A stretch of 26,275 bases of DNA, taken from positions 1 to 26,275 of the IMG/VR virus record IMGVR_UViG_3300033180_000004. One strand, written 5' to 3'. Source of the DNA: a virus. This document shows positions 3,137-18,368 of this stretch, in pieces; position 1 is the first letter of the stretch; every line of letters starts with the position of its first letter. The notes under the pieces were generated by a model that worked only from the letters and a program-made list of their open reading frames with translations, was not told the origin of the DNA and did not search any database. The translations under genes and the position numbers were made by a program.

Positions 3137-3372
3137 GCGAGGAGGTCTGGCACGTCCTGAACATTTGCAGCAGCCAGCTGCGCTTTCAGCTCCATCCGGT
3201 GCCGATGGGCATGGGCGTGACGATGGCAAGCGAGCCGATCGGGCTGGATTTCGGCGCGGTGATGGCGATGGGCGACGCGCTGGGCTGCGACCTGCCCCTG
3301 CTTGCCGAAGTTCTGCCGTTCGTTGAATATGCCATCGTCGAGGGAGCGAGTGACGATGGCGACGAGGAGTAG
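2615..3372 (+). CDS. Tail assembly chaperone, -1 frameshift fusion (gpGT-like)
   Basis: Slippage at 2992-2998 moves ribosomes from the frame of the 173-residue protein into the -1 frame, giving a product of about 252 residues (128 upstream plus 124 downstream codons, stop 3370-3372). The downstream part has no plausible start of its own near the join but is clearly coding. It carries LAEWHWRNGDRGARYC, a C148-x3-C152-x7-C160-x2-C163 cluster, and then EVWHVLNICSSQLRFQ...IGLDFGAVMAMGDALGCDLPLLAEVLPFVEYAIVEG. The last block resembles the T domain of phage tail chaperones (DUF1799-like: 'W..l...tQWR..-.G..GLDy.av'). In lambda the T domain binds tube subunits and the G domain coats the tape measure. 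The Cys4 cluster is an addition I do not know from lambda. Confidence 0.8.
2992..3033 (+). promoter_or_regulatory. Programmed -1 ribosomal frameshift signal (A AAA AAC plus hairpin)
   Basis: In the upstream frame the codons read GAA AAA AAC, so bases 2992-2998 form the canonical X XXY YYZ heptamer A AAA AAC; G GAA AAA overlaps it as a second possibility. A 9-base spacer follows. Bases 3008-3015 can then pair with 3026-3033 (seven of eight pairs), and 3017-3019 with 3023-3025 over a GGC loop with one bulged G. A slip of -1 joins the chaperone N-terminus to the open frame that carries the conserved T-like domain. Spacing and direction both fit known bacterial and phage frameshift stimulators. 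The efficiency cannot be read from the sequence. Confidence 0.8.
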
Positions 3373-3802
3373 GACCGCGACGATCGTCGCCGGCGTCGTG
3401 CTGTTGGCCGCCCTGGGCTTCATGTCGGGGTGCCAGTCATCTCGCGCCAAGGCGGTGTCACTGTGCCGCGAATATTATGGAGACGATGCGGTCGGGGAAC
3501 CGACGGTGCTCGATCTGCCGATCTCCGATGTCGAGTTCGTTCGGAAGTACATGCCCGGCGAAAAGAATGCGGCGATTCTGTTGGGTCTAAAGGTCGAGGC
3601 GGAGCATGAGTCGCTCGGCGTTCGGAATGTGATCTTTGCGAACTCTCCGCTGCCGGTGAAGCCGCAGTGCGCCTTTCGAACGCACGACGGCGATTTGTCT
3701 GACCTCGCCGAGGGGGAAATGCACTCGGCACAGGCAACGCGTTTACTTGTAAACGCAAGAGTGTCGCCGCCCTCGTCGCAATGGCCACCCTGCTGCATGT
3801 AG
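3356..3802 (+). CDS. Small exported lipoprotein of unknown function (moron candidate)
   Basis: This frame overlaps the end of the frameshift product by 17 bases. I start it at the ATG at 3356 (148 residues) because this gives a clean lipoprotein signal: basic N-terminus MATRSRT, hydrophobic core IVAGVVLLAALGF, lipobox MSGC with Cys at residue 24 and a Q-S-S-R mature start. An upstream ATG at 3302 would bury the signal. The mature part is acidic, with pairs of Cys and no recognised domain. Its base use is visibly less GC-rich than its neighbours and includes rare codons such as CTA and AAT/GTA-rich stretches, a mark of recent acquisition. A lipoprotein gene wedged between chaperone and tape measure is not needed for tail building. 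Receptor masking or superinfection exclusion is a possible role, by analogy with phage lipoproteins such as T5 Llp. That is inference only. Confidence 0.6.
   Translation: MATRSRTATIVAGVVLLAALGFMSGCQSSRAKAVSLCREYYGDDAVGEPTVLDLPISDVEFVRKYMPGEKNAAILLGLKVEAEHESLGVRNVIFANSPLPVKPQCAFRTHDGDLSDLAEGEMHSAQATRLLVNARVSPPSSQWPPCCM
3739..3756. promoter_or_regulatory. Perfect 8+8 bp inverted repeat (possible operator)
   Basis: GCGTTTAC-TT-GTAAACGC is a perfect dyad of 8-bp arms with a 2-base centre, lying in the last quarter of the lipoprotein frame. It is AT-rich for this genome and is the size of a dimeric repressor site. It is too tight for a hairpin loop in RNA. No regulator for it is visible in the window. 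Confidence 0.4.
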
Positions 3803-8136: not shown

Positions 8137-8537
8137 TGCAGCGCGATTATCAGGCCCTTGACCGCTTCATCGCGGAACGCCGGGTCATGCCTTTCGCCTG
8201 GGGCCGCGCGGCCAATGATTGCGTGAGCTTCGCGGCGGGCGCGGCGATCGCACAGACCGGCACCGACCCGCTGAAGGGCCTGCGCTGGGCCAGCCGGGCT
8301 GGCGCGCTCAAGCTGCTGACGCGGCTTGGCGGCCTCGACGTGGCGATATCGTCCCGCCTCGCCGAGGTCGCCCCCGCCCAGGCGCATCGCGGCGATATCG
8401 CCGGCGTGCCGTCGGCGGATCTGCCGGGTGACGTGCGACTGATGGTGATCGTCGGCGAGTTGCTGGTCGGGCCGGGGGAGCATGGCACCGAATTCGCACC
8501 GCGCAGCGCCATGCTGCGGGCGTGGAGCCTCGGCTGA
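8136..8537 (+). CDS. NlpC/P60-like tail peptidase, DUF6950-like
   Basis: This 133-residue protein shows FAWGRAANDCVSFAAGAAIAQTGTDPL, where Cys29 in 'NDCv.f' occupies the place of the NlpC/P60 catalytic Cys, followed by a helix. A later 'AHRGDIAGVPS' block (His84, Asp87) matches the 'GD' strand of the family. The later catalytic His is not obvious, so the activity is uncertain. Proteins of this kind sit between distal tail and hub genes in lambda (gpK) and in gene transfer agents (gp14), and are thought to cut peptidoglycan during DNA entry or to act in tail tip assembly. Junctions on both sides overlap by one base. Confidence 0.7.
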   Translation: MQRDYQALDRFIAERRVMPFAWGRAANDCVSFAAGAAIAQTGTDPLKGLRWASRAGALKLLTRLGGLDVAISSRLAEVAPAQAHRGDIAGVPSADLPGDVRLMVIVGELLVGPGEHGTEFAPRSAMLRAWSLG

Positions 8538-10804
8538 TGGGTAAGGCCGTCAAGATCTTCTACGCCGTGTCGTGGATCGTCGTCGGCGCGATCACCGGCA
8601 ACTGGGCGATGGTGATGCAGGGTGCGATCCTGCTCGGCTCGACCCTCACCGAGAAGGGACCCGGCGCGCGCCAGGCCTCGGCATCGACGATGCAGCTCGG
8701 CGAAACGTCGCGCAAGGCGGCGTTCGGCACGGTCGCCACGGCGGGCAGCCTCAACGAGGGGTTCGACCATGACGGCAAATATGGCACCGACTGGGAGGTG
8801 CTCGACATCACGCTGGCCGATTGCCGCTGCAAGGGGCTGGTCGGGGTCTATGTCAACGATGTCTATGTCGCCTTCGCGCCGACCGGCGACGATGTGGCCG
8901 ACCAGAACGGCACGGTGCCGGGTTATAACGACCAGCTGCGCATCAATTTCTATCCCGGCACCGAGACGCAGATCGTCAAGCAGACGCTGATCGATTTCGA
9001 CGGCTATGCGGCGAGCGACAATCTCGCCGGCGTGTGCAAGGTCGTGGTGCATTACAAGGCCGATGACGAGAAGGCCAAGCACCCGGTGTTTCCGGGCGGC
9101 CGGCCGCGCTTCCTGTTCGTGCTCGATGGCGCCTATTGCTACGATCCGCGCAAGGACTCGACCGTGGCCGGCGGATCCGGGCTGCACCGCTGGGACGACC
9201 CGTCGACCTGGGAATGGTCGGACAACCCGATCGTCTGCCGTTACAACTGGGCGCGCGGCATCTTCGCCTGCGACCGGGTCGACCAGCCCGACATGCTGTT
9301 GGTCGGGCGCGGCCTGTCGGCGATCGAGGCGCCGCCCGAGAATGTCGCATGGCGCGCCAATATCTGCGACGAGCTGGTGCCGCTCGCCGCGGGCGGCAGC
9401 GAGAAGCGCTACACCTGCGGCATCATGATCGAGGCGGACGAGCAGTTCGACGCGGTCGAGAAGATCTGGGCGGATTGCTGCGCCGGCATCATCCGCCAAC
9501 CCGAGGGCAGTGTCGAGGTCGATCCCGGCCATGCCGTGACGCCGACCTTCGACATCACCGACGACGATCTGCTGATCGGCGCCAAGGTGAACTTCTCGCG
9601 CTTCCGTAACCAGGCCGACCAGCTGTGGATCAACACGGTGATCCCGGGCTATGTCGAGCCGGCGCAGAAATGGGTGACGCACAGCGCGCCGCTGCGCCGG
9701 GTCTATGCCGATGTGATCGCCGATGGCGGGGCGCGCGAGGCGACGCCGCAGCTCGACGCGGTGACCAGCGGCACCCAGGCGCAGCGCTGCGGCGAGATCA
9801 TGCGGCGCATGGGGCGCCTGTTGCGCACCGCCACGGTGACGGTGGGGCCGCGCTATGCCGGTGTCGAGGAAGGCGACTGGGGCACCTTCACCTCCGCCCG
9901 CCACACCGGGGGCGTGCCGATGACGGTGCGGGTCGAGGCGATGGCGCTGGACGAGAAGTGGCGCAACACGCTGACGCTGCGCGAGATATCGGCCGATGTG
10001 TTCGCCTGGACGATCGCGGACGAGATCGCCGAGGGTGCGGTGGCGGTGCCGAACCCGGTGCCGACTTATGGCGACGCGCCGGATGCCGACGACTGGGCCG
10101 TGGCGGGCGGGATCGTCGCCGGCACCAATGGCGAGGCGATCCCTGCGATCATCCTGTCGGGCGCCTCGAGCGACCCCTATGCGCAGTCGATTATGGTCGA
10201 ATATCGGCCGCGCATGGCGCTGCTCGCCGAGGATGGTTCGGTGCTGCTCAACGAGGACGGCTCGGTGATGCTCGCCGAGGGCGACGCGCCCGACTGGATC
10301 GCCGAACCAACGCTGGCGGCGGCGACGACCAGCTATACGTTGCGCGGGTTGTCGGCCGGCAGCGTCTATGAGGTGGCGATCAGCTATTATGTGCGTGGGG
10401 CGGTCACCGACCGGCTGGTGCTGGGTCCGGTAATCGCCGGCGCGTTGGGCGTATCGCGGGCGGCGTACAGTGTCGATGCGCTGGACCCGGCCTTTCCGGT
10501 GACCAGCGACGACACGCACATCATGATCGCCGCATTCACCGCGGTGCTGGATGACGGGCGGTCGATGGCGTTCCCGGCGGACAACATCGCCAGCCTGGCC
10601 AATTCGACGACCTATGGCGTGTTCTGGCGCTTCTCGACCAGCGCGTGGGAGGTCGACGTGACCCCGGCGATCAGCCGCAAGGCTTCGTCCGACTATGTGT
10701 TCATCTGCTGGACGACGACATCCACGGCCGGGTCGTTCCCGCCCGCGACGTCGCCGCCACCCGGATACCAGGGCGCGGGCCCGCGCGAACTCGAAATCGT
10801 CTGA
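8537..10804 (+). CDS. Tail hub / host specificity protein (gpJ- or GTA gp15-like)
   Basis: I start it at the ATG at 8537, which overlaps the upstream TGA, rather than five codons earlier; the product is 755 residues. The N-terminus is hydrophobic (KIFYAVSWIVVGAITGNWAMVMQGAILLGSTLTEKGPGARQASASTMQLGETSRKAAFGTV), as in several tail-tip attachment proteins. A long beta-rich hub follows, with WGDNP-like WSDNPIVCRYNWARGIFAC and a helix-strand segment DEQFDAVEKIWADCCAGIIRQPEG, typical of phage 'central tail hub' proteins. Residues about 535-640 look like a fibronectin type III unit (WIAEPTLAAATTSYTLRGLSAGSVYEVAISYYVRG). The C-terminus is Pro/Gly/Thr-rich and probably joins the fibres encoded next. 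A DGSV repeat near residue 565 is noted separately. Confidence 0.85.
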   Translation: MGKAVKIFYAVSWIVVGAITGNWAMVMQGAILLGSTLTEKGPGARQASASTMQLGETSRKAAFGTVATAGSLNEGFDHDGKYGTDWEVLDITLADCRCKGLVGVYVNDVYVAFAPTGDDVADQNGTVPGYNDQLRINFYPGTETQIVKQTLIDFDGYAASDNLAGVCKVVVHYKADDEKAKHPVFPGGRPRFLFVLDGAYCYDPRKDSTVAGGSGLHRWDDPSTWEWSDNPIVCRYNWARGIFACDRVDQPDMLLVGRGLSAIEAPPENVAWRANICDELVPLAAGGSEKRYTCGIMIEADEQFDAVEKIWADCCAGIIRQPEGSVEVDPGHAVTPTFDITDDDLLIGAKVNFSRFRNQADQLWINTVIPGYVEPAQKWVTHSAPLRRVYADVIADGGAREATPQLDAVTSGTQAQRCGEIMRRMGRLLRTATVTVGPRYAGVEEGDWGTFTSARHTGGVPMTVRVEAMALDEKWRNTLTLREISADVFAWTIADEIAEGAVAVPNPVPTYGDAPDADDWAVAGGIVAGTNGEAIPAIILSGASSDPYAQSIMVEYRPRMALLAEDGSVLLNEDGSVMLAEGDAPDWIAEPTLAAATTSYTLRGLSAGSVYEVAISYYVRGAVTDRLVLGPVIAGALGVSRAAYSVDALDPAFPVTSDDTHIMIAAFTAVLDDGRSMAFPADNIASLANSTTYGVFWRFSTSAWEVDVTPAISRKASSDYVFICWTTTSTAGSFPPATSPPPGYQGAGPRELEIV

Positions 10805-10811
10805 GGAGACC

Positions 10812-11036
10812 ATGATGCGAATGACCAGATTGCTCGCCGCGTTCGTCGCGGCGGGGGCGCTCGGCGCGTGCACCTTCACCCCGGACCATGCGCCCAATGG
10901 GGTGAAGGTGAGCGATTTGCCAGAAGCGGCACCGCTCAACGGCAGCGAATATGTCGCTGCGGTCCAGAACGGGCGGTCGGTCAAGGTGAAGGCGGCCGAT
11001 CTTCGGCACTTCGCGCAGGGCGGAGAGATCAAATGA
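10812..11036 (+). CDS. 74-residue lipoprotein with SDLP tail-fibre motif
   Basis: A GGAG site 4-5 bases before the ATG at 10812 sets the start; the longer upstream frame is a shadow of the hub gene. The N-terminus MMRMTRLLAAFVAAGALGAC is a lipoprotein signal with lipobox LGAC (Cys20). The mature 55 residues contain VKVSDLPEAAPLNGSEYVAAVQNGRSVKVKAADL. This is the 'i.dLPaa..L.G.E.v.vvQ.g..v......l' motif found near the N-terminus of many phage fibres. The next gene repeats the same motif after its own signal peptide. The protein is thus a membrane-anchored stub of a fibre attachment domain. Its role is unknown; candidates are a lure or mask on the host surface, or a tail part secreted and assembled outside the cytoplasm. 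Confidence 0.7.
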   Translation: MMRMTRLLAAFVAAGALGACTFTPDHAPNGVKVSDLPEAAPLNGSEYVAAVQNGRSVKVKAADLRHFAQGGEIK

Positions 11037-12313
11037 TCAGGCGATTGATCCCGGCAGCACTCCTTGCAGCGGCGCTGGCGTGCGCGCCGATCGCGGCGAC
11101 GGCGCAGAAGGTTTCCGACCTGCCGGCGGCGACGACGCTGTCGGGCCCGGAGATGCTCGCCGGGGCACAGGGATCCGGTTGCGCCACCCATGTCGCGCCG
11201 TGCGCCTCGGTGCGCATCTCGCCGGCACAGCTTGCGACCTATATCAACGCCAGTCTCGACCCGCAGCTGGTGGCGCTGGCGGCGCTGTCGCCGGCGGCCG
11301 ACAAGTGCGTCTATTGGACCGGGTCGACCGCGGCGTCGCTGTTCGACTGCACCAGCTTCATGCGCGGGCTGGATGGCAGCGCGAATGCGGCGGCAGCGCG
11401 CAGCACGCTCGGGCTCGGCACGCTGGCGACGCAGAGTGGGACGTTTTCGGGCACATCGAGCGGCACCAACACCGGCGACCAGACGACCGTCACCGGCAAT
11501 GCCGGCAGCGCGACGGTGTTGCAGACGCCGCGCACGCTGGCGATCACCGGTGACATCGCATGGACCTCCCCGAGCTTCGATGGATCGGGCAACGTCACGG
11601 CGGCGGGCACGCTGCCGACGGTCAACAGCAATGTCGGCGCCTGCGGCACCTCGACGACGATCCCGACCGTCACGCTCAACGCCAAGGGACTTGCCACGGC
11701 CTGCACCGCGGCGACGGCGTCGACCGATATCGCGCTGCCTATCGTGCACCCCGGCTATGTCGCGGGACGCTGGTATTGGCCGTTCGGCGCGACGGCACAG
11801 GCCAATCTCTCGGTTGTCGTGGGCAATGCCAATTTGCGACTTGCCCTGGTGCTGGTGCCGCAACGCATCACCGTGTCGGACCTGTTCACCCGCATCGGTA
11901 CGGCTTCGGCCGGCGGCAACATCCAGCTCGGCGTCTATGCCCAGGATGCGTCGACCAAATATGCCACAGGCGCGGTGCTGGCATCGACCGGCAATATCTC
12001 CACAACGACGGCGACGGTGGTGTCCGCCACGCTGGGCGCATCGACCCAGCTGGCCCCGGGCTGGTATTGGGTCGGCGCGATGGCCGACAACGGCACGGTC
12101 GGCGTAACCGGGACCGCGACAGGCATCGTGCGCGGCGCCGCAATGATCGGCAGCACGACGCTGGGCAACGTCTCGTCGGCCATGGTCGTCAACGCGATCG
12201 CCGCGCAATATTCGGTGACCTTCGGCACCTGGCCGAACCTGACCGGCGTGACACCGACCGAAGTGCTGACCGGTGAGCCGATGGTCGGCTTCAAGATCTC
12301 GTCGGTCCCATGA
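11033..12313 (+). CDS. Tail fibre-like protein with N-terminal signal peptide
   Basis: The ATG at 11033 overlaps the previous TGA (ATGA), giving 426 residues; the longer upstream frame is not used. The first 25 residues (MIRRLIPAALLAAALACAPI then AATAQ) form a Sec signal with an AxA-Q cleavage site. The SDLP motif follows immediately (KVSDLPAATTLSGPEMLAGAQG). Next comes STLGLGTLATQSGTFSGTSSGTNTGDQTTVTGNAG and TLPTVNSNVG, repeats widespread in phage tail fibres (ARSTLGLG..., TGDQTTV, AGSATVLQT.R...). The C-terminal half is a beta-rich, Ala/Thr/Gly-rich possible receptor-binding head, ending FKISSVP. Two Cys pairs near residues 60 and 85 could form disulphides if the protein is exported. A signal on a virion fibre is puzzling, because virions assemble in the cytoplasm. 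Confidence 0.75.
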   Translation: MIRRLIPAALLAAALACAPIAATAQKVSDLPAATTLSGPEMLAGAQGSGCATHVAPCASVRISPAQLATYINASLDPQLVALAALSPAADKCVYWTGSTAASLFDCTSFMRGLDGSANAAAARSTLGLGTLATQSGTFSGTSSGTNTGDQTTVTGNAGSATVLQTPRTLAITGDIAWTSPSFDGSGNVTAAGTLPTVNSNVGACGTSTTIPTVTLNAKGLATACTAATASTDIALPIVHPGYVAGRWYWPFGATAQANLSVVVGNANLRLALVLVPQRITVSDLFTRIGTASAGGNIQLGVYAQDASTKYATGAVLASTGNISTTTATVVSATLGASTQLAPGWYWVGAMADNGTVGVTGTATGIVRGAAMIGSTTLGNVSSAMVVNAIAAQYSVTFGTWPNLTGVTPTEVLTGEPMVGFKISSVP

Positions 12314-12361: not shown

Positions 12362-12781
12362 ATGACCGCGCGTAGTTCGATCACCGTGTTCCGCAAGGAT
12401 CCTGTGCAAATCGCCATCGCCTTTACCGGCGTCGACCTGACCGATGTGATGGCCAGCCTGTCGCTCGCGGTGAAGATCGGGCCCGATGTCGGCGGAGAGC
12501 CGATCCTGACCTTCACCGGTGCGGAGGATGGCGGCATCACGCTGTTCGACATGTCGGTCGATGATGACGGAATCGCCACCAGCGTGATTCTGCTGTCGAT
12601 GACCAAGGCCGACCATGTCGCTGCGCTGGCGGACTACCAGCCGGTCGAGCCCGGCCAGACCGTCATTCTCTATTTCGACATCCAGTGGACGCCGCCAGCC
12701 GCGCTGGTCGCGCCGATGACGGCTGTCGAAACCACCATCCTGACCGGCAATTACATCGTTCTGGGGAGCGCCAATGACTAG
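12362..12781 (+). CDS. Small beta-rich tail protein, BppU-like pattern
   Basis: This 139-residue protein follows a 48-base gap containing GGGGCC ahead of the ATG. It begins with 'r.sITVFRKDPVQIAIAFTGVDLTDVMASLSLAVKIG', then 'GEPILTFTGAEDGGITL' and 'TKADHVAALADYQPVEPGQTVILYFDIQWTPPA', ending 'ETTILTGNYIVLGSAND'. Phage upper baseplate proteins (BppU N-terminal fold) share this plan of a short strand with 'D...l.v.f..vDLtg', a middle substitution of 'i...iG' and a closing 'G.Y.v' strand, and their genes also neighbour spikes. It probably forms a collar between hub and tailspike. Its last 8 bases overlap the tailspike start, which suggests coupling. Confidence 0.5.
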   Translation: MTARSSITVFRKDPVQIAIAFTGVDLTDVMASLSLAVKIGPDVGGEPILTFTGAEDGGITLFDMSVDDDGIATSVILLSMTKADHVAALADYQPVEPGQTVILYFDIQWTPPAALVAPMTAVETTILTGNYIVLGSAND

Positions 12782-15350
12782 CACAGTGATTACGGTCGAG
12801 GTCCTCGACGAAAGCGGCAAGGCGGCGGTTGCCGCGGCGAAACGCGCGCAGACGATCGTCGATGACATCGGCGACGTCGTGGGCAGTATCGACGATGCCA
12901 GGGATGAGGCGCTGGGTGAGATCGCGGCGGCGGAGGCCGATGCCCTGGCCTCGCTGACCGGCATCGCGGCCGAGCGTGCGACCCGGCTGATCGGCGCGGT
13001 AAAGGCGGCGGCGGGCGATGCGAGCAAGGTCAAGCTCCTCGTCTCAATGGATGGCGCGGTGACCTATCGCAGCGGCTCGACCACGGACATTCAGACACTG
13101 TCGCCGCTGATCGGTGCGGGCACGCTTTCGCAGTTCGGAACGACCTATGATGGTACCGGCGGCGCAGAACTGCCGCTCCGCCCTATCAAGAACGCGACAG
13201 GCATCCAGTTCCACAGCCAGGTCGGGTTCGATCTCTCCACGTCGCCGCTGACGCAGACGGGTGAGATGTGCATCGACATCATCATGCGCACGCCGGCGCC
13301 GGCGGCATCGTACGCCAGCGTTGCGCTGATGACCGCCGACATCGCGGCGCGAAAGATGGGAGACATCTCAGCGGTAACGGCGGGGGCGTGGACCAACATC
13401 CCCGCCAACTACAGCGGCTATCCAGACCCGGCGGCAGGATATCTCCGCAACATGCAGATCGCCGACGCGGATCTGATCCAGGGCCTCTATATCAAGGGCA
13501 ACGGCGCCTACGGCAAACCGAGCGATCAGGGCTTCCTGACGATTCTGAACAGCGACGAAGGCAAGTACATCCGCTTGTTCTTCGATCGACTCGGACGGAT
13601 CGTCGTCTTTGCCTATGACGGCACGACCCAGGCGCAGGTCAAGACGCAGAACACTGATGCCTTCACGCTCGGTCAGAGCGGGCCGATGCATCTGAAGCTG
13701 GACTGCAGCCATCGCCACACCCGTCTCTGGCTCAATGGCGTCGAGATTTATTCGGCCGCCATGAAGGCATCGTTCACGCCGGACCATATCTATTTCAACG
13801 GCAAGAGCAGGCTTGCGGCGGGGGTGATCCCGGTCAGCGGCTTCGCCTGGACCATGGATGCGCTGTGCATCACGGAAAACCTCGACTTCACGGCGAAGCG
13901 CCATCTGTCCGACGCGCTGGCGGCCGAGTTCGGGACACCGAAACAGGCGTGGAACCCGGTGGTTCGGATCGGTGTGCATATCGGGCAATCGAACGGCGCG
14001 GGCAGCACGAACACGGCGGGCGACCTGAACCGACCCGACGCGATATCCGGCTGGAACGGGATGGTGATGCCGAGCGGGGCGGACTTGCCTGCGCAGGTCG
14101 CGATCACGAACACCTGGCTGCAACGCGTCTACGTCACGCGGGACGCCAACGCGCCGTGGGACATCGGCCCGATGCGCGCCGACACCAACGTGTTCAGCGG
14201 CGCGGCCGGCGTCGGCAGTGCCTATGTCGTTTCCGGGCAGGGGATCGAGACGGTCGAGTGGGGCCTAATGGGCCAGTTGCTGACCACCGAGGAGAACCGC
14301 GCGCACGACTGGTGCCTGCTCGGCATCAACGATGGCGGCTATTCGCTCGGCTATCTCGACAGCACGACCAACCCCTATCTCTACAACGTGCGGGGGACAT
14401 CGTTCGGGAGCTGGCCAAACGTGACCAACGAGCGCGACCACGCGAATCAGATGGTGGCGGAAGCTGTCGCGCATTTCGCCGCGCGCGGCCAGACGGTCGA
14501 GCTTGCCTATGTCTATCATGAGCAAGGCGAGACGATCGTCCCGCTGCCGGCCGGCTACACGCAGGCGACCTATGGCGCGGCCTATGAGGCGAGTTGGCGC
14601 AACTGGCTGGTCAACCAGTTATGGCATCTGGTGAACCCGACCGGGCCGGCTCCGGTCTATATCAAGAAGGCGATCAACTATTCGGCGGATGGCGCGTCGA
14701 ATAGCTACAACGTCACGCCTTATTACCCGGACGACCAGCTGCGGCGACTCGAGGCGACGAAGGACACGACGTTCCGCTTCGCCTTCACCGGCGAGAGCTA
14801 CGCGCGCGACGGTCGGTTCATTCACAAGCCGCTGCTGTGGCACAGGAAACGCGGCGAGACGGTGGGCAAGATCATCCTCGACGCCCAGGCGGGCAATGAC
14901 ACGACCTGTTTTCAGGTCAAGTCGGCATCGATCGTGTCGGGCAAGATCCGGCTGATGTTGTCGGCCGGCGCCGATGCGGTTGACACGGCTTATCCCACCG
15001 TCTTGGCGCGCCACGCGACCGGCGGCGTCGATACGTTCGGCTTGGTTCTGGAACCCGTCTCTGGCGGTCGTACCATCACCGCAGTCGATAACACGAACAT
15101 CAACGCCGCCACGCCGTACATCGAGGTCACCGTCTCGGGTGGCGGTGCCGTCGCGGGCGACCGGATCAACGTCACTGGCAGCAACGCCCGCTGGTCCAAC
15201 TATCGCCGCCATGCGCGCACCTACGGCCTGTTGCCGGATCAGGACTGGAGCGGGTCACCGGCCAACTTCACCAGCGGCGCACCGCCCTACACGCCGGGGG
15301 CCAACAATGAACTAACGCCGTGGCTTGCGGCGGGGAGCTATGTCGTATGA
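12774..15350 (+). CDS. Tailspike with SGNH/SASA carbohydrate acetyl-esterase domain
   Basis: This 858-residue protein has a GGGGAG ribosome binding site inside the previous gene. Residues about 13-90 are an Ala/Asp/Glu-rich helix likely to form a trimeric coiled coil. Residues about 130-375 look like a LamG/jelly-roll unit (IRLFFDRLGRIVVFAYDG, HLKLDCSHRHTRLWLNGVEIY). Residues about 390-700 show the esterase: block I HIGQSNGAG with nucleophile Ser406, a late H582-E-Q-G-E-T block like the 'WhQGEsD' box of the sialate O-acetylesterase (SASA/CE6) group, and D679-GRFI-H684 as a possible Asp/His pair. The remainder is a beta-rich C-terminal domain. Esterase tailspikes remove O-acetyl groups from capsule or exopolysaccharide receptors. 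Sphingomonads make acetylated sphingans, an attractive but unproven substrate. Confidence 0.82.
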   Translation: MTSTVITVEVLDESGKAAVAAAKRAQTIVDDIGDVVGSIDDARDEALGEIAAAEADALASLTGIAAERATRLIGAVKAAAGDASKVKLLVSMDGAVTYRSGSTTDIQTLSPLIGAGTLSQFGTTYDGTGGAELPLRPIKNATGIQFHSQVGFDLSTSPLTQTGEMCIDIIMRTPAPAASYASVALMTADIAARKMGDISAVTAGAWTNIPANYSGYPDPAAGYLRNMQIADADLIQGLYIKGNGAYGKPSDQGFLTILNSDEGKYIRLFFDRLGRIVVFAYDGTTQAQVKTQNTDAFTLGQSGPMHLKLDCSHRHTRLWLNGVEIYSAAMKASFTPDHIYFNGKSRLAAGVIPVSGFAWTMDALCITENLDFTAKRHLSDALAAEFGTPKQAWNPVVRIGVHIGQSNGAGSTNTAGDLNRPDAISGWNGMVMPSGADLPAQVAITNTWLQRVYVTRDANAPWDIGPMRADTNVFSGAAGVGSAYVVSGQGIETVEWGLMGQLLTTEENRAHDWCLLGINDGGYSLGYLDSTTNPYLYNVRGTSFGSWPNVTNERDHANQMVAEAVAHFAARGQTVELAYVYHEQGETIVPLPAGYTQATYGAAYEASWRNWLVNQLWHLVNPTGPAPVYIKKAINYSADGASNSYNVTPYYPDDQLRRLEATKDTTFRFAFTGESYARDGRFIHKPLLWHRKRGETVGKIILDAQAGNDTTCFQVKSASIVSGKIRLMLSAGADAVDTAYPTVLARHATGGVDTFGLVLEPVSGGRTITAVDNTNINAATPYIEVTVSGGGAVAGDRINVTGSNARWSNYRRHARTYGLLPDQDWSGSPANFTSGAPPYTPGANNELTPWLAAGSYVV

Positions 15351-16066: not shown

Positions 16067-16534
16067 ATGAAAGCACGGACCCCCGCGCCGATGGACCCGC
16101 GTGCCATCGGCTTCATCACCATCCATTGCGCCGCGACGCCCCGCGGGCGCGACACAAAGGCGGCGGAGATCTCGGCGATGGACATCGCCCGGGCCGATCT
16201 CGGCAACCAGATCGCCTATCATTATGTCATCGAGCTCGACGGCAACACCGTCCAGACGCTGCGCCACGACCAGAAGGGCGCACACACCGGCGGGCACAAC
16301 ACCGGCAACCTCGGCATCTGCTATGTCGGCGGCGTCGAGGCGAACAAGGCGATGACGCCGGCCGACACGCGCACCGATGCGCAGAAGGCCGCGCTGCTCG
16401 CGCTGATCCACAAGCTGCGCGCCCAATATCCGCACGTCGTCATCCGTGGGCATCGCGACTGGCCAGAGGTGAAGAAGGCCTGCCCGTCGTTCGACGTGAA
16501 GGCGTGGTTGGCGAGCGTTGGGGTGGCGGCGTGA
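16067..16534 (+). CDS. Endolysin, N-acetylmuramoyl-L-alanine amidase (T7 lysozyme type)
   Basis: This 155-residue amidase has AAGGAG 7-8 bases before its ATG. It belongs to the Amidase_2/T7 lysozyme class: 'ITIHCAAT' with His20 as the first zinc ligand, Y51/H52 near the T7 Tyr46, a 'GAHTGGHN.GNLGICYVGG' core, and 'GHRDWPEVKKACPSFDV' with His129, Lys137 and Cys139. The order and spacing correspond to T7 His122, Lys128 and Cys130, so all metal and catalytic residues are present. It cuts the amide between N-acetylmuramic acid and L-Ala in peptidoglycan. There is no signal peptide, so release to the cell wall needs a holin. The next gene starts by GTGA overlap. Confidence 0.92.
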   Translation: MKARTPAPMDPRAIGFITIHCAATPRGRDTKAAEISAMDIARADLGNQIAYHYVIELDGNTVQTLRHDQKGAHTGGHNTGNLGICYVGGVEANKAMTPADTRTDAQKAALLALIHKLRAQYPHVVIRGHRDWPEVKKACPSFDVKAWLASVGVAA

Positions 16535-16937: not shown

Positions 16938-17318
16938 ATGAAGCGATTGATGATCGCCGCGGCGCTATGCGTCTCGGCGCTGTCGGCCTGTGCCCTGTCG
17001 GGGTGCGGCATACTCCAGCCGCCGGCAAGCGCCACGGCGGGCGCGCTGGGCGATCATGTCGTGCTCAAGAGCACGATCGCACTGTCGCTGGGCGAGCTGG
17101 CCTTCACCGGGGCCGAGCAGACCGCGACGGCGGCGCTCAGGTCGCCGCATCTGTCGAAGGACGATGCCGCCCGACTGGGCACGCTGGTGCACGATGCGCG
17201 CGGCTATCGCGATCAGGCGCGCAAGGCGGTGGCGGCCGGGCAGGATGCCAGTACCATCCTCGGCAATCTGAACGGGGCGCTGAGCAAGATCACGCCCCTC
17301 ACCGCGAAAGGAAGCTGA
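16938..17318 (+). CDS. Lysis-cassette lipoprotein
   Basis: AAGGAG lies about 7 bases before the ATG. The first 23 residues (MKRLMIAAALCVSALSACAL) form a lipoprotein signal with two successive lipoboxes, LSAC (Cys18) and LSGC (Cys23); the second fits best. The mature part (GILQPPASATAGALGDHVVL...) is helical and Ala-rich, with repeats of 'AAL' and charged residues. Outer membrane spanins (o-spanins, Rz1 type) are lipoproteins encoded next to endolysins but are usually Pro-rich and shorter, so this is an alternative rather than the call. It may be a stabilising subunit or a moron. Confidence 0.6.
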   Translation: MKRLMIAAALCVSALSACALSGCGILQPPASATAGALGDHVVLKSTIALSLGELAFTGAEQTATAALRSPHLSKDDAARLGTLVHDARGYRDQARKAVAAGQDASTILGNLNGALSKITPLTAKGS

Positions 17319-18294: not shown

Positions 18295-18368
18295 TGGAGC
18301 GGGTAACGGGAATCGAACCCGTGTATTCAGCTTGGAAGGCTGCTGTACTACCATTGTACTATACCCGC
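18295..18368 (-). tRNA. tRNA-Gly(TCC)
   Basis: The minus strand reads GCGGGTA acceptor, D-arm GTAC-AATGGTA-GTAC, anticodon loop CTTCCAA (TCC at 18334-18336), T-arm with GGGTTCGATTCCC, acceptor TACCCGC, discriminator T and an encoded CCA (18295-18297). The body is 71 bases, as expected. The anticodon stem has a G-A at its first pair. The 3' end faces the prophage, which fits the common use of tRNA 3' ends as phage attachment sites. Confidence 0.95.

Follow-up and report, generated by a model that had tools for sequence, protein, structure and literature searches.

Why would a prophage carry, side by side in its tail operon, a small lipoprotein and a tail fibre that share a docking motif and each begin with a predicted export signal? 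In the textbook view, tailed phages assemble entirely in the cytoplasm. The window analysed here (26,275 nucleotides of the IMG/VR virus record IMGVR_UViG_3300033180_000004) holds the tail and lysis half of a prophage, with phage genes up to about 17.6 kb and a tRNA-Gly at 18295-18368 that is probably the attachment site; the flank beyond the prophage has host-type genes (LysR, M13 peptidase, molybdenum hydroxylase). The features that bear on the question are as follows.

8522-10804, plus strand: tail-tip protein of the J / Phage-tail_3 type (PHROG 5616, tail fiber protein, E 1e-108; PF13550, E 8e-10)
10812-11036, plus strand: lipoprotein of 74 aa with an ATG start, MMRMTRLLAAFVAAGALGAC followed by TF, and a canonical lipobox, L-G-A-C
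10905-10967, plus strand: motif of the lipoprotein, KVSDLPEAAPLNGSEYVAAVQ (sequence, shuffle test and module alignment)
11033-12313, plus strand: tail fibre of 426 aa with a signal peptide, MIRRLIPAALLAAALACAPIAATA followed by QKVSDLP; its N-terminal 128 aa are orthologous in L002
11033-11104, plus strand: Sec-type signal peptide of the fibre, predicted by rule-based scoring, with cleavage between ATA and QK (residues 24 and 25)
11108-11242, plus strand: docking module of the fibre; Cys50 and Cys57 lie in a loop inserted into its hairpin (GSG-CATHVAPC-A; 14-module alignment)
11300-11371, plus strand: second fibre module, ADKCVYWTGSTAASLFDCTSFMR; its Cys92 and Cys106 take the place of L/F and F/L in cytosolic homologues
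11744-12310, plus strand: C-terminal domain of the fibre, swapped between two phages and also found in an unsignalled gene of Rhizobium phage RHph_N1_10
12362-15350, plus strand: two tail/fibre-position genes without export signals (139 and 858 aa), an internal contrast in the same operon

The tip gene (likely start, ATG 8540), the lipoprotein gene and the fibre gene follow one another in this order, and the latter two sit inside the tail (late) operon; no promoter-like or terminator-like signals were recognised around them, or between J and the fibre. A GGAG Shine-Dalgarno sequence lies immediately upstream of the lipoprotein gene, whose product comprises a signal peptide (residues 1-19), the lipid-bearing Cys20 (codon 10869-10871), a linker (residues 21-31) and a docking module (residues 32-68). 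The fibre gene, preceded by GGAGAG, overlaps the lipoprotein stop by ATGA and is translationally coupled to the lipoprotein gene through this overlap. The initial annotation had described the two adjacent genes as each bearing an export signal directly followed by the same fibre motif. Place, signals and motif were confirmed for both, and the pair is conserved in a second phage, IMGVR 3300020060_000019; the motif directly follows the signal in the fibre, whereas in the lipoprotein an 11-residue linker (TFTPDHAPNGV) separates it from the lipid-Cys. The pattern K[IVM][ST]DLP[AED]AxxLxGxE matches the lipoprotein at 10905 and the fibre at 11108, two occurrences in the window against none in 100 shuffles, and the final Q of the motif as first described is present in both proteins.

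We considered whether the signals could arise from wrongly chosen starts. For the lipoprotein this is unlikely: the GTG at 10902 that adjoins the motif has no visible Shine-Dalgarno sequence, and the lipobox is conserved. For the fibre there is no start codon near the motif, the nearest being codon 5, inside the signal. To call signals, rules on composition and cleavage sites stood in for SignalP, and they also flag J and the major capsid ORF; since a lenient version flagged many internal starts, a stricter one was applied to the controls described below.

The second phage is an independent temperate phage (36 kb, with an integrase) that has the same order of J, lipoprotein and fibre. Identity to the window phage is 65% for J, 59% for the lipoprotein and about 75-79% for the N-terminal 128 residues of the fibre. 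The lipoprotein ortholog (L002:4777-5004) keeps the lipobox and the module at similar length, and both lipoboxes, both AxA sites, the motif and the ATGA coupling are all retained between the two phages. Both signals are under purifying selection, with dN/dS of 0.14 for the fibre signal and 0.50 for the lipoprotein signal (modules, 0.31-0.35; whole lipoprotein, 0.41; its linker, 0.94). As the fibre signal peptide is both predicted and conserved, it would speak against a cytoplasmic location. The C-terminal domains of the two fibres differ, and a constant N-terminus with an exchanged distal domain is the pattern seen in receptor-binding fibres. The fibre C-terminus matches only PHROGs of unknown function; RHph_N1_10, which shares the domain without a signal, is a lytic phage. 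An AlphaFold2 model of the whole fibre (pLDDT 30) gave no usable fold or disulfide geometry, and genome-contig scans with J and with the fibre N-terminus found no relatives. Two features mark the protein as a tail fibre: its gene adjoins the tail-tip gene in the late operon, and its docking module is common to virion fibres.

How unusual a signal is in front of this module can be seen from a scan of IMG/VR with a degenerate DNA pattern of the motif, which returned 32 contigs. In 30 of these the gene starts 3-4 residues ahead of the motif, leaving no room for a signal; as a rule, therefore, the module stays in the cytosol, and a signal in front of it truly departs from that rule. Two contigs differ: one is the sister phage, which has the same gene pair, and the other is a Mu-type contig of Bacteroidota-like character with MRGYLIIFFVFGFLISKAQ followed by KVSDLP. 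The earlier statement that the motif is normal for virion fibres and needs no secretion is borne out by these N-terminal, unsignalled copies and by a virion protein of known structure: a profile of the docking module matches the crAss001 tail fibre gp22 at residues 28-55 (AATPLKGNETVVLVQNGKNVKASVKDV, E 3e-5). In the crAss001 virion, residues 1-26 seat the gp22 trimer in the docking hubs of the tail (PMC10172136), so that the same N-terminal module stands just after the hub-seated residues (PDB 7qoj, 7qol, 8ckb). The KISDLP start itself is unaligned, however, and no lipoprotein with a second copy of the module is described for crAss001. Ordinary KITDLPAAxxLxGxE and ADKLPYFTG fibres have the same modules in the same order and the same place at the tail end of the late operon, but they start at or near the module and lack both the export signal and the Cys pair. 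In an alignment of 14 modules, those of the lipoproteins and of the fibres cluster by gene and not by phage; the duplication is therefore old.

The lipoprotein is little more than a docking module on a short lipid tether, because its module matches gp22, AlphaFold2 models it as a beta-hairpin followed by a helix (pLDDT about 79-84), and Foldseek searches with the model give only weak matches (best E 4e-3), most of them in the N-terminal part of fibres, tailspikes or uncharacterised phage proteins. Its lipid-Cys is its sole cysteine, and its module has no inserted Cys loop. No family in Pfam, PHROG, NCBIfam or PADLOC matched it, and tblastn against phages and viral contigs found no close relatives.

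The cysteines of the fibre bear on whether the signal is used. The loop GSG-CATHVAPC-A, inserted in the docking hairpin, occurs in the 14-module alignment only in the two exported fibres. The second fibre module usually reads ADKLPYFTGSGTAALTDFTAF, and the window fibre has Cys at two positions that are otherwise occupied by hydrophobic residues, L/F and F/L. We scanned IMG/VR for the Cys version of this module with a pattern blind to signals and obtained three contigs, all three with the second Cys. Both contigs with a complete 5′ end encode clear signal peptides (MRRLAAVAFVVACLVASARPAQA and MKRLAVAVLVAAVLLVPRASRAQ); the third is 5′-cut and a near-identical copy of one of them. A control pattern with L/F matched 120 loci with 121 modules in all; none of the 121 contains Cys, and only 1 of 75 non-redundant control fibres with a complete 5′ end was signal-bearing. 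Among 5′-complete cases the Cys pair is thus confined to signal-bearing fibres, with 4 distinct modules in two lineages. Fisher's test gives p = 3e-6 for 4/4 against the 75 controls and 1e-3 for the two unselected cases alone; the four cases form two independent lineages, and the cysteine evidence rests on these two. The Cys-pair signature offers a simple sequence test for finding exported fibres. The sole control fibre that has a Cys-free ADKLPYFTG module and scores as signal-bearing (MHGGHRVIALCSLWAALCVLCVPLFGQQ) is in L098 (IMGVR 3300020202_000344). More broadly, Cys content is 2.5-4 times higher in signal-bearing fibres than in unsignalled structural proteins in 4 of 5 phages (the window phage, its sister and two soil-type phages; p = 2e-4 over these four). 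The fifth, the Mu-type Bacteroidota-like phage, is the exception, its signal-bearing fibres being poor in Cys (0.19% versus 0.83%).

Signal-bearing fibres also occur outside this pair of phages, as the initial annotation had mentioned for alphaproteobacterial phages, and they extend beyond the alphaproteobacteria. Three other phages, G002, G003 and G004, each encode three signal-bearing proteins in a row, these being fibres, LamG-like, beta-helix or companion proteins. The run in G002 encodes a fibre, a LamG-like protein and a right-handed beta-helix protein (PF13229), and that in G003 a fibre, a LamG-like protein and a tailspike-like protein. The beta-helix protein, the third signal-bearing gene product of G002 (L190 10239-11990), has 13 Cys in its mature part, which is unusually Cys-rich for a phage structural protein. 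G004 is a Mu-type phage of Bacteroidota-like character (sheath, Mu transposase C-terminal domain, AAA ATPase), and its run consists of the KVSDLP fibre, MKKIFLLLLLPIASLAQ... and MKNLICITVFLLVSIAGYCQ.... No further gene of G004 was recognised as a fibre beyond these signal-bearing ones; on the simplest reading, therefore, they are its virion fibres. It is mainly because of this set that we prefer maturation of fibres outside the cytoplasm to a decoy made only in lysogens.

Starting from the gene structure, the signals and their conservation, the identity of the module, the Cys pattern and the recurrence in other phages, we propose, with a probability of roughly 40%, that the fibre folds and is oxidised in the periplasm and is mounted on tails at lysis, and that the lipoprotein displays the docking module of the fibre at the envelope. 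Both proteins would be exported in the late (lytic) phase. The fibre would cross the inner membrane by Sec, lose its signal between ATA and QK, and fold in the periplasm, where its extra cysteines could form disulfides. Once holin, endolysin and spanins had opened the cell, the compartments would mix, and the N-terminal KVSDLP module of the fibre would dock on the tail tips of released particles from outside the cytoplasm, the J-type tip protein being the presumed partner. The lipoprotein, with the same module on a short lipid tether, would hold, nucleate or deliver that module there and so keep fibres from being lost until the tails arrive; the role of the lipoprotein is the weakest step of the proposal. 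Actual export, the disulfides, the contact with the tip protein, attachment at lysis and the part played by the lipoprotein are inferred. Export would not be required for all fibres of the window phage, given the tail/fibre-position genes at 12362-12781 and 12774-15350, which have no signals; in the sister phage, the gene at the corresponding position encodes a GDSL lipase domain.

A parallel exists in pIII, the adsorption protein of filamentous phages, which is Sec-exported and disulfide-bonded. Here too a Sec-exported, disulfide-bonded receptor-binding protein that joins the particle from the envelope side is proposed; filamentous phages, however, assemble in the membrane, and the window's tailed phage in the cytoplasm. 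With more reserve, we suggest a general and undescribed maturation route, by which several unrelated tailed phages would export receptor-binding fibres by Sec, fold them in the periplasm, often with disulfides, and mount them at lysis, the window phage being helped by its lipid-anchored docking module. No published description of exported fibres in tailed phages was found in the open-access literature. If the route is real, it would change what is assumed about the disulfide chemistry of fibres and about when particles become infective, as well as how tail fibres are engineered and annotated.

The initial annotation had named surface decoys that mask receptors and periplasmic fibre assembly among possible explanations. 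Periplasmic folding is favoured over a lysogen-expressed decoy because the genes have no recognisable promoter of their own and lie in the late operon, the C-terminal domain of the fibre is swapped, and recognised fibre genes of other phages carry signals; receptor masking of the Llp/Cor type stays a candidate for the lipoprotein. The main rival to periplasmic loading, possible though on balance unlikely, is an envelope protection of that type, serving superinfection exclusion or the protection of progeny. The outer-membrane lipoprotein, alone or with the exported fibre, would block either the receptor or the docking of tail tips and thereby keep superinfecting or newly released phages from adsorbing. 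Llp of T5 is a small lipoprotein of the outer membrane whose gene adjoins that of the receptor-binding protein, and Cor proteins resemble it (PMC9586334). The window gene is small too, bears a lipobox and adjoins tip and fibre genes; its product has Thr or Ser at the +2 position, which by the E. coli rule would send it to the outer membrane, and a lipid-anchored docking module could occupy tail tips. However, Llp and Cor share an intramolecular disulfide that the window lipoprotein, with no Cys beyond the lipid one, could not form, and there is no sequence match to them: the family models gave none. Moreover, no promoter of its own was recognised, a fibre docking module and coupling to an exported fibre are particular to the window gene, the former not being reported in Llp or Cor, and the whole exported fibre sets of other phages would be left unexplained. 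Should the pair be an exclusion device after all, it would be built in a new way, from the virion's own docking module on a lipid anchor.

The remaining readings carry little weight against periplasmic loading. The signal-like N-termini might serve not for export but as hydrophobic anchors inside the tail tip. J also scores under the signal rule, so hydrophobic N-termini do exist in virion proteins, but anchoring leaves unaccounted for the conservation of a perfect lipobox and of the AxA sites between the sister phages, the selective gain of paired cysteines and a cleavage site directly ahead of the docking motif in two unrelated phages; we consider it improbable. We give as little credence to the idea that the lipoprotein is itself a virion component, lipidated in the envelope and docked on the tip beside the fibre, where it would help the tail to engage the outer membrane of the next host. 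Its make-up, a docking module on a tether of variable length, and the coupling of its gene to that of the fibre would fit, but no homologue of it was found in virions of tailed phages, and we know of no lipidated protein in such virions. Least probable of all is a remnant, by which fibre-swap recombination would have left the lipoprotein behind as a piece of an older exported fibre. It does consist of signal and module only, like a truncated fibre; this reading is already weakened, however, by the lipobox, module and similar length kept in the second phage at a dN/dS of 0.41, and by the age of the duplication.

Several other small or exported proteins were noted near tail and lysis genes. A role of the 74-aa lipoprotein as an outer-membrane spanin (Rz1-like) was ruled out by position: such a spanin gene would overlap or adjoin that of an inner-membrane spanin in the lysis cassette, but this cassette, with the endolysin at 16067-16534, lies 5 kb off and has its own lipoprotein gene at 16938. 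The latter (16938-17318; MKRLMIAAALCVSALSACALSGC) adjoins the endolysin gene, has no Pfam match and is a candidate lysis lipoprotein. In Sinorhizobium phage phi2LM21, p49 (L007 7249-7470) is a 73-aa protein encoded right behind J, with a Tat-like signal (MNRRSFLAALCAAPLVPKIVDA), and is possibly a parallel to the window lipoprotein; its positional counterpart in HMSP1-Susan (L172 7433-7651) has a similar C-terminal end and no signal. A prophage on a plasmid of Devosia sp. SL43 (L179 from 10943) has a tailspike-like gene with a Tat-like signal (SRRRALQSLVAGSAAAGLSAIATPARA), a signal-bearing tail-end gene in an alphaproteobacterial phage. Finally, the window encodes another lipoprotein (3356-3802; MATRSRTATIVAGVVLLAALGFMSGCQSS) between the tail assembly region and the tape-measure gene, and the sister phage has in the same slot (L181:16445-16828, minus strand) an unrelated-looking exported protein (MVKSLALLLVAALLQS), neither with a family match; this slot looks like a conserved place for exported accessory genes.
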